Source: Desulfobacterales bacterium
GTDB lineage: Bacteria; Desulfobacterota; Desulfobacteria; Desulfobacterales; Desulfosalsimonadaceae
Length of the DNA: 64,000 nucleotides
NCBI GenBank assembly: GCA_034520365.1
Contig: JAXHNP010000006.1
Coordinates: 427,001-491,000 of the forward strand
Direction: 5' to 3'
Part shown: piece by piece, positions 16,631-18,712 of the stretch
Position numbering within the stretch: position 1 is the stretch's first letter
Layout of the letters: each line of letters starts with the position of its first letter
Made by a program: the position numbers and the translations under genes
Notes under the pieces: model-generated
Seen by the model: the letters and a program-made list of their open reading frames with translations, nothing else
Told to the model about the DNA's origin: nothing
Databases searched by the model: none

Positions 16631-17215
16631 GTTTTCCGGACACGGCTAATTTGTTCTGTATCCAAATCGAAATCGCTATCGGGATCGGGATCGAAAAAAA
16701 TATGACCCTTGGACGTGAAAAACTGGACGTCTATCGCCTTTCAATAGGCTACGTTGCATGGGTTTACGAGAAGGCCGACAGCCTGAACGGAGTCCATCGG
16801 CCCGCCCGGGATCAATGGCTTCGGGCCATCCAGTCGATACCGCTCAATATCGCCGAAGGTAATGGCAAGACCGCGGAAGCCGACCGAAGGCGTTATTTCG
16901 AAATCGCTCGTGGCTCCCCGCTTGAGTGCGCGGCGATTCAAGATGTGCTGGTTGTCGACAAGGCGCTGGACAAGATGGAAAGCCGGAACCGCAAGGATGA
17001 ACTCGACCGTATGGCCGCGATGCTCAGCCGTCTCGGCGGAAGAGGATACCAAGTTCGAGAGGATCAGGAAGTCTACAGCATCGATTTCGATCCCGATAGC
17101 GATTTCGATCCCGATTTCGATCCCGATAGCGAAGAAAACGAATCCCAACCTTAGCTTTAACAGGACCGGGGGTATGGATTTTGCGGTTAGAACAAATTAG
17201 CCGTGGTTTTCCGGA
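16631..17215 (+). mobile_element. Small mobile element carrying a four-helix-bundle gene, with TIRs and 10-bp target duplication
   Basis: The element proper is 16641-17205 (565 bases). Its ends are an exact 17-bp inverted repeat: CACGGCTAATTTGTTCT at 16641-16657 and its reverse complement at 17189-17205. Directly outside, the 10 bases GTTTTCCGGA occur on both sides in direct orientation (16631-16640 and 17206-17215), as expected for a target-site duplication. Just inside, a second inverted repeat is built from CGATCCCGATAGCGATTTCG-type units (16664-16696 and about 17082-17134). The only gene is a four-helix-bundle protein; no transposase is present. Confidence 0.8.
16702..17154 (+). CDS. Four-helix-bundle protein (23S rRNA intervening-sequence / S23 family)
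   Basis: A 150-residue protein of the four-helix-bundle family found in 23S rRNA intervening sequences and related to the Avd accessory protein of diversity-generating retroelements. It shows LDVYRLSIGYVAWVYE, IPLNIAEGNGKTAEADRRRY and YFEIARGSPLECAA, all family signatures. The C-terminal tail is an FDPDSDFDPD low-complexity stretch created by the tandem repeat that forms the inner arm of the element's inverted repeat. I use ATG 16702, because the upstream frame to 16651 reads through the left inverted repeat. Here the gene is not inside rRNA but in a separate element between two metabolic genes. Family members are thought to bind nucleic acid; function is not established. Confidence 0.85.
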   Translation: MTLGREKLDVYRLSIGYVAWVYEKADSLNGVHRPARDQWLRAIQSIPLNIAEGNGKTAEADRRRYFEIARGSPLECAAIQDVLVVDKALDKMESRNRKDELDRMAAMLSRLGGRGYQVREDQEVYSIDFDPDSDFDPDFDPDSEENESQP

Positions 17216-17335
17216 TCGGAATCGGAAGGTGTGGCCGGATAATTGGTATTCTTTTTGCATTTCACTATACATAATTCTAAAAGATATTTGGATGTTTACT
17301 GATAATTCTTAAATGGCAAAGAAAGGAGAAGCACC

Positions 17336-18712
17336 ATGCAAAAAGGGGAAAATCTGGTCATTGTCGGTTGCGGCGGTGTTGGCGGCCCGGCTGCCATGCT
17401 CTCAAAAAAACTGATGCCGGATATCAATATCACGGTTATTCGCGAGGAAGATCGCTTTATTGTCAGGTGAGCGCTGCCGCATGTGGTGGCCGGTCTGGCC
17501 GCAGGCGAATCAATTGTGAATCCTGATAAAATGTTTGCTGACAGCGGCATTGAAATGGTTGTGGATCGGGTGGAGGATATTGATGCCGCCCAAAAACAGC
17601 TGAAAACTGCCGGCGGAAAGGCGATCCCCTATGATAAGCTGATTTTATCCCCGGGGTCGAAACCGTTTGTTCCTCCGATTCCCGGCGGTGACCTGGATGG
17701 CGTGGTGACCCTGCGCTCGCTTTCGGATGCCGAGAACATCAGGACATACCTGGATACTCACAACCCGGTAAAATTGGTATTTGTGGGTGCCGGTTTTATC
17801 AGCCTCGAGGTGGCGGCTCTTCTCAAGCAGGTGCCGGATAAGCAGTATGGGATTGAAATTATTGAATTAATGGATTGTCCGCTGCCATTAATGCTTGATC
17901 CGGAACTCGGCAAAATCATCCATGAGCATCTGGACGGCAATGGGTTCAATATGCGCATGGGGCAGAAGGTTTCCAAAATTATCGGCCAAGACGACCGGGT
18001 ATCGGCTGTGGAGCTCGATTCCGGCGAGCGGGTGGACGCGGATATGGTGTTTATGAATGTGGGGACGCGGCCCAACCTGGAGCTGGCCAAGCACATGGGC
18101 CTTGAAATGGGCCAATACGGGATAAAGGTTAATGAGTTTCTGGAGACCTCAAACCCGGATGTCTTGGCGGCAGGCGACTGTATTGAGAATTATCATTTTA
18201 TCACCCAAAAACCGGTGCCGATCCAGCTCCGCGGTCCGGCGGTGATTCAGGGCCGGCTTCTGGCCAAGCGGCTGGCCGGATATGATATCCCGTTTCCCGG
18301 GCTGCTTGGCAGCAGTGCGGTTAAACTGTTTAACAAGTATATTGCCGCCACGGGGTTTAATGAAACCCAGGCCCGAAACGAGGGGTTTGATCCGGTGTGC
18401 GCCACCGTGCAGTCCGGCAGCAAGCATGCCATGATTCCCGGCATGCAGCCATGGACGCTGAAACTGGTGTTTGACCGGGATTCCCACAGACTTATCGGCG
18501 GGCAGATTATCAGTGATAGTGAGGCGCCGGTAAAGGAGATCGATGCCGTGAATGCCTTGATCGTGGGCAGGCAGACCATATCGGATCTTGTAACGCTGAT
18601 GTGCGCCGGCAACCCGGATTGCTCCTCTGAGCCCTCCAAGGAGCCCATTACCATCGCAGCAGAGCAGGCACTCCAGCAGGTCCGGCCGGCGAGTTCAGTG
18701 AGAGGGGTTTAA
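17336..18712 (+). CDS. Probable selenoprotein: NADH oxidase / CoA-disulfide-reductase-like flavoprotein (UGA = Sec45)
   Basis: Read through the in-frame TGA at 17468-17470, the frame runs from ATG 17336 (AAAGGAG upstream) to TAA 18712, 458 residues. The N-terminus has the FAD motif IVGCGGVGGPAA. The segment FIVR-UGA-ALPHVVAG aligns with the redox-active Cys loop of class III pyridine-nucleotide disulfide oxidoreductases, where a Cys is followed by x-x-P-Y/H. The rest has the ILSPGSKPFVPPIPG hinge, a second Rossmann fold (FVGAGFISLEVAALL), AAGDCIEN and a C-terminal dimerisation domain with MCAGNPDCSSEPS. Homology continues in frame on both sides of the TGA, and a SECIS-like hairpin follows. 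A nonsense mutation is the alternative, but it is less likely. Confidence 0.82.
17468..17502 (+). promoter_or_regulatory. SECIS-like hairpin directing selenocysteine at UGA 17468
   Basis: After the UGA (17468-17470) and 21 further bases comes a 5-base loop GGUCU (17492-17496). It is closed by GUGGCC (17486-17491) pairing with GGCCGC (17497-17502), six pairs with one G-U; an outer GCC/GGC pairing may extend the stem across an internal loop. The loop sequence and the distance from the UGA resemble the E. coli fdhF SECIS, where GGU in the loop contacts SelB. Confidence 0.75.

Follow-up and report, generated by a model that had tools for sequence, protein, structure and literature searches.

Flavoproteins of the NADH oxidase/CoA-disulfide reductase kind that contain selenocysteine (Sec, U) have been listed since 2006. 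The tables of that year hold one Sec "NADH oxidase", from Geobacter metallireducens (PMC1794560), and the GOS survey gives one occurrence (PMC2398784). A 2022 review places a Sec member under COG0446 (PMC9312934). A 2026 review lists a Sec FAD-dependent oxidoreductase (CoA-disulfide reductase, NADH oxidase) under TIGR03385, with the motif UGxP and the representative WP_011365774.1, and treats differing Sec motifs as distinct subfamilies (PMC13188914). These entries come from the parts of the four sources covered here. An earlier note on the DNA described below had suggested that the family might not be new, and the entries bear this out.

The selenoprotein type III sulfide quinone reductase subtype NF049943 is likewise a Sec FAD/NAD(P) flavoprotein (PMC13188914, PMC12013277), and the covered part of the latter source records it in Desulfosediminicola. 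Among enzymes with Cys, the NADH-dependent persulfide reductase of Archaeoglobus fulgidus (NoxA-3/Npsr, PDB 6PFZ) is an FAD-dependent reductase with a catalytic Cys, a YAPP motif and a C-terminal rhodanese domain, and both subunits contribute to its active site (covered sections of PMC7969121).

The DNA analyzed here, termed the window, is a 64,000-nt stretch from a Desulfobacterales bacterium (GCA_034520365.1, contig JAXHNP010000006.1, positions 427,001–491,000, forward strand). It contains a gene of the same superfamily as the listed Sec FAD-dependent oxidoreductase.

The open reading frame and its in-frame TGA codon

The gene is at window positions 17336–18712 on the + strand. It starts with the ATG at 17336, its final stop codon ends at 18712, and the sole interruption of the frame is a TGA at codon 45 (17468–17470). 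Read as Sec, this codon gives a 458 amino acid chain that is a homologue of the FAD/NAD(P)-dependent class III disulfide oxidoreductases. A Shine-Dalgarno-like AAGGAG (17323–17328) is found 7 nt 5′ of the ATG, and a run of at least four AAGGAGG bases precedes the equivalent ATG in 28/28 orthologous loci. Promoter and terminator scans gave match numbers no higher than those in shuffled sequences.

The table-11 listing of open reading frames, which represents the product of a standard gene caller, displays instead a 409 aa frame that starts with a GTG (17483–18712). The earlier note had predicted such a miscall, beginning after the UGA. The closest match to AAGGAGG that is 5′ of this GTG is AGG. 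The N-terminal FAD-binding Rossmann segment VIVGCGGVGGPAA (residues 8–20, positions 17357–17395) is encoded 5′ of the UGA, thus a start after the UGA would lose it. A standard gene caller would omit the N-terminal FAD-binding part of the enzyme as well as its catalytic residue, and in view of this truncation the orthologs are probably misannotated.

The translated sequence matches the Pfam families Pyr_redox_2 (PF07992, residues 6–285), Pyr_redox (PF00070) and Pyr_redox_dim (PF02852). FAD, NAD and dimerization domains together with an N-terminal active Cys/Sec are the traits of a class III pyridine-nucleotide disulfide oxidoreductase, and all are present. By family analogy the protein is probably a homodimer. 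In a phmmer search against the PDB, U45 aligns with the active Cys of 6pfz, of 3iwa and of 6ruz. The TGA is therefore where the earlier note had placed it, at the active-site Cys position and at exactly the coordinates given.

The AlphaFold2 model has a mean pLDDT of 90.5. Its best PDB match is 6pfz (Z = 45.5, rmsd 2.3 over 440 residues), and the A. fulgidus persulfide reductase is the best PDB match in both sequence and structure. It differs from the window protein, which has Sec in place of Cys, lacks YAPP and shows no Pfam match to rhodanese. Comparison with CoA-disulfide reductases and NADH oxidases gives Z values of about 41–45; the CoA-disulfide reductases of B. anthracis (3cgb/3ict), P. 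horikoshii (4fx9) and S. aureus (1yqz) are at 40.9–45.4, with the active residue at the same alignment position.

The best NCBIfam model is TIGR03385, at 257.8 bits and below its curated cut-off of 578.8; a search of 395 genomes of the phylum with this model, in which at most four candidates per genome were scored, yielded matches in 271 and none above the cut-off. The earlier note had called the protein a CoA-disulfide-reductase/NADH-oxidase homologue. Its membership of that superfamily stands, but a CoA-disulfide reductase function is doubtful given this score and the missing YAPP tyrosine (see below). NF049943, which has the motif HxxU and belongs to COG1252, does not occur among the best 25 of the 49 NCBIfam matches of the window protein.

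Contigs of named bacterial genomes were scanned, and the 28 orthologous loci obtained all have TGA at codon 45, in the setting FIVRU[A/S]LPH. These loci are from Desulfobacterales, Desulfobacteraceae, Desulfobulbaceae, Deltaproteobacteria and similar taxa. Desulfocicer vacuolatum DSM 3385 (L014) and Desulfosarcina widdelii PP31 (L028) are examples of cultured bacteria that carry the gene. Thirteen other loci (L037–L047, L073 and L079) partly duplicate organisms of this set and were excluded from the count; L074 is an additional TGA locus beyond it. In the GTDB family of the window, 11 of 36 genomes (the window's own counted) have a close ortholog with one TGA, and three others matched solely through Cys-type paralogs. 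Across 395 genomes of the phylum, with at most four candidates scored per genome, 13 matched at 1e-70: six with TGA (including the window's own), four with Cys orthologs and three with remoter Cys proteins.

Among the Cys orthologs, L075 is 57% identical and has TGT at codon 45. The other three are 39%–43% identical and have TGT (L076 and L077) or TGC (L078). When Sec is treated as C, column 45 is invariant among 31 aligned rows. An alignment of homologs at position 45, proposed in the earlier note as a check, thus displays TGA in all 28 loci and TGT/TGC in the four Cys relatives. The window gene is very probably a selenoprotein in which UGA45 is decoded as Sec.

The hairpin 3′ of the UGA and the selenocysteine machinery

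A bacterial SECIS element is a stem-loop that occurs soon after the UGA and has an apical loop beginning with G. The window has such a stem-loop at positions 17486–17502 (GTGGCC-GGTCT-GGCCGC), with six pairs and the loop GGUCU (17492–17496) situated 21 nt 3′ of the TGA. RNAalifold, run without a supplied structure on an alignment of 29 sequences that each cover the TGA and the following 60 nt, yielded precisely the six pairs that the earlier note had pointed out. In these sequences 97.7% of 174 hairpin cells pair, compared with 17%–54% when one arm is shifted by 1–3 columns (six versions). A change from G-C to A-U on both sides is present in four sequences (L019–L022), all at one pair, thus perhaps representing a single event. 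Single-sequence folding of the window did not favor the hairpin energetically (z = 0.94 and –0.09), and it is not the minimum free energy structure.

Codon usage was also analyzed. For the five hairpin codons scored (51–55), the normalized synonymous entropy averages 0.18; the mean over 152 other conserved codons is 0.80 (sd 0.16). Of 100,000 random samples of five codons, taken from the 101 of these that have at least four synonyms, none reached so low a value. When 53 five-codon windows were scored, the five lowest began at codons 48–52, which is the strongest synonymous constraint scored in the gene. The support is comparative, and codon usage is stronger evidence for the hairpin than pairing. 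On these comparisons the hairpin is under selection at the RNA level. In the Cys form L075 the loop, by eye, is altered to GGCCT and one pair is mismatched; this region is a possible remnant of an older SECIS element.

The earlier note had also called for a search for selA, selB, selC and selD. In the window genome, selA (623.1 bits), selB (361.2 bits) and selD (381.7 bits) each score above their own cut-offs, and tRNA-Sec scores 78.2 bits against a cut-off of 47; ARAGORN also calls tRNA-SeC(tca). The selD open reading frame of this genome itself has one in-frame TGA (ASGUAAK). Among 16 related genomes selA was found in 12, i.e. in 9 of 12 that have the Sec gene and in 3 of 4 that have the Cys form. 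The four without a selA match are three drafts with the Sec gene that are 88%–92% complete (G022, G013 and G010) and one genome with the Cys form (G204). L075 is located in a selA-positive genome.

These data bear on the simplest alternative, that the TGA is a real stop codon, a sequencing error or a sign of gene decay, and that the protein begins after it. The GTG-started frame of 409 aa does exist 3′ of the TGA. Set against it are the FAD-binding segment encoded 5′ of the TGA, a ribosome site that is good before the ATG and poor before the GTG, and RNA-level selection 3′ of the TGA. Sequencing error and pseudogene formation were rejected because the identical TGA is shared by 28/28 separate records. 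This alternative is considered extremely improbable.

Relationship to other Sec and Cys members

The list of TIGR03385 matches contains at least 40 rows with one TGA (counted by eye), of which 20 were fetched (L113–L132). All 20 are class III reductases of the phylum that have TGA at the active Cys. Their motifs are UGIPYY, USEPYY, UETPYY, UPTPYY, UDLPYY and ULMPYY, and several are thus not of the UGxP type.

A tree of 90 rows was constructed, after the truncated L036 was dropped and 26 of 116 rows were omitted as close copies by eye. It should be noted that the search was short, that L080 and L108 have long branches and that the group tested was defined after inspection of the tree. The 17 window-type Sec rows form a single branch (SH-aLRT 96). 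The Cys form L075 is next to this clade (SH-aLRT 99), followed by the Cys forms L076–L078 (98). A branch with a support of 100 divides the tree: on one side are the window clade, L075–L078 and seven additional Cys rows, and on the other are 62 rows, among them CoA-disulfide reductases and all of the 20 remaining Sec rows.

Sec and Cys forms interleave in the tree. It requires seven Sec/Cys changes, and well-supported branches force at least five. A single clade of all 37 Sec rows is rejected (p-AU = 4.3e-56, with the group named after the tree was seen). Relative to the 20 other Sec members in the comparison, Sec in the window clade seems to be a separate gain. On this tree Sec and Cys have been swapped several times at one residue within one flavoenzyme superfamily, and the resulting natural Sec/Cys pairs are suited to a study of the benefit of selenium beside a flavin.

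The motif of the listed Sec family is UGxP; in the window and in 28/28 loci, Ala or Ser follows Sec (U[A/S]LPH). The window clade also lacks the YAPP tyrosine and has a position in the tree apart from the 20 other Sec rows, the listed family itself being compared by motif. The separation from that family rests on L113–L132 as stand-ins for WP_011365774.1, which from its motif is inferred to belong with the UGIPYY-type rows.

U[A/S]LP in this superfamily is absent from the rows examined in the table of the 2026 review (PMC13188914). A U[A/S]LP clade was also not found in the covered parts of the literature searched (PMC1794560, PMC9312934, PMC13188914, PMC2398784, PMC8318568, PMC12013277 and PMC5029168). 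Desulfosarcina widdelii PP31, whose ortholog is L028, has already been scanned, with 38 known selenoproteins, according to the part of PMC12013277 covered; thus a gene of the window type may be counted there under a broad family name. The window clade is apparently a separately derived and undescribed subfamily of a known kind of Sec flavoenzyme.

C-terminal cysteines, gene neighborhood and possible function

In the CoA-disulfide reductase rows and in all 20 other Sec rows, a C-terminal motif of the YAPP type carries a tyrosine. This residue is replaced by G425 or C425 in 28/28 full-length members of the window clade. Seventeen of the 28 have CAGNPDC (G425) and 11 have [S/N]ACNPDI (C425); every full-length member has Cys either at 423 and 429 or at 425. 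In the window, C423-A-G-N-P-D-C429 is encoded at positions 18602–18622 (+ strand), where the CoA-disulfide reductases have YAPP(F/Y), and its cysteines are candidates for a role as partner-subunit cysteines. The model is comparatively uncertain for residues 421–440 (pLDDT blocks of 67 and 74).

The four Cys-form relatives display CAGQPE, i.e. C423 is present and the second Cys is absent, and seven further Cys rows on the same side of the tree have T at the tyrosine position. The YAPP tyrosine is absent in all 11 Cys rows on that side. C429 and C425 were observed in Sec forms only. The presence of C423 in Cys forms and the absence of the tyrosine in these 11 rows suggest that both features are older than Sec, thus neither arrived with it.

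The YYPG tyrosines are also replaced, the window clade having MIPG. PDB titles name Y361/Y419 for the S. aureus CoA-disulfide reductase, which we take to be the YYPG and YAPP tyrosines. The active-site tyrosines of the CoA-disulfide reductases are therefore replaced in the window protein, and this comparison suggests to us that the clade has not retained the classical CoA pocket.

The window gene stands alone; its neighbors encode a 23S rRNA intervening-sequence protein on one side and a TPR protein on the other. Toward the 3′ end of the former gene, which is upstream at positions 16651–17154, there is a short, imperfectly repeated sequence, GATCCCGAT...GATTTC. Clustering of open reading frames around 34 loci (the 28 plus L073–L078) and the window showed no neighbor common to most loci. 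A conserved operon as a guide to the substrate was rejected, since neighbors are clade-specific only; the substrate is thus not named by any operon. In L026, L029 and L035 a gene of one family is next upstream of the Sec gene and on the same strand, and the L026 copy matches ArsP_2 and the arsenic efflux model.

In the mechanism that is proposed, SelB and tRNA-Sec would decode UGA45 with the aid of the hairpin. NAD(P)H would reduce FAD, which would then reduce the selenium of Sec45, and the Sec45 selenolate would attack a small sulfur substrate (persulfide, polysulfide or disulfide) or a peroxide. This route of reduction is inferred from the family and is somewhat favored. The Sec adduct may then be resolved by a Cys of the partner subunit as an intersubunit Sec-Cys′ bond. 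In analogy to the family, the segment with Cys 423 and 429, or 425, would be contributed by the partner subunit, which makes such a resolution possible; it is suggested tentatively from the alignment, with rather low confidence. The low pLDDT of this segment counts against it, as does the finding that neither C423 nor the loss of the YAPP tyrosine arrived with Sec.

Equally tentative is the wider proposal that the clade represents a hitherto unreported Sec subfamily with an independently evolved Se-S relay across the dimer, formed by Sec45 and the partner C423/C429 or C425. Mammalian thioredoxin reductase is an analog in spirit; in the present case Sec would be beside the flavin, with the Cys supplied by the partner. 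If the proposal is true, the active Cys of this superfamily is a hot spot of Sec gain or loss, at least several times.

The protein may, on the other hand, be a plain member of the listed UGxP Sec CoA-disulfide reductase family that reduces CoA disulfide or CoA persulfide. TIGR03385 is its best model, the Sec position is identical in 20/20 other Sec members checked, and persulfide and CoA-disulfide reductases head the structural matches. It nevertheless scores well below the TIGR03385 cut-off, though 0 of the 395 phylum genomes exceed this, has U[A/S]LPH instead of UGxP, and lacks the YAPP and YYPG tyrosines; the rejection of one clade of 37 Sec rows, a group named post hoc, also argues against it. 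This reading is judged unlikely. A role as a metal(loid) or organometalloid reductase, in which a soft metal or an arsenical would be bound by Sec45 together with the Cys pair of the partner subunit, would have the Cys pair of CAGNPDC and the upstream gene of L026, L029 and L035 in its favor. Mercuric reductase would be a rough analog of such binding. That neighbor is found in only 3 of 28 loci, however, all of the USLPH type, and no ArsP-like gene is present among the seven window neighbors scanned, which makes such a role quite improbable.

Cys-type paralogs of the superfamily are present in the fetched flanks of seven Sec loci: ACGMPY-type paralogs flank L022, L024, L030 and L074, and PCGIPY-type paralogs flank L027, L031 and L033. 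The window genome has at least two further superfamily members, L057 (a 577-residue frame) and L150. Next to the Sec gene of L022, at positions 1389–2804 of that locus, is a gene for an octaheme cytochrome of the tetrathionate reductase family, with its own in-frame TGA (NNFU) roughly 90 residues from the start; the covered part of the 2026 review table (PMC13188914) already includes a Sec member of TIGR04315.
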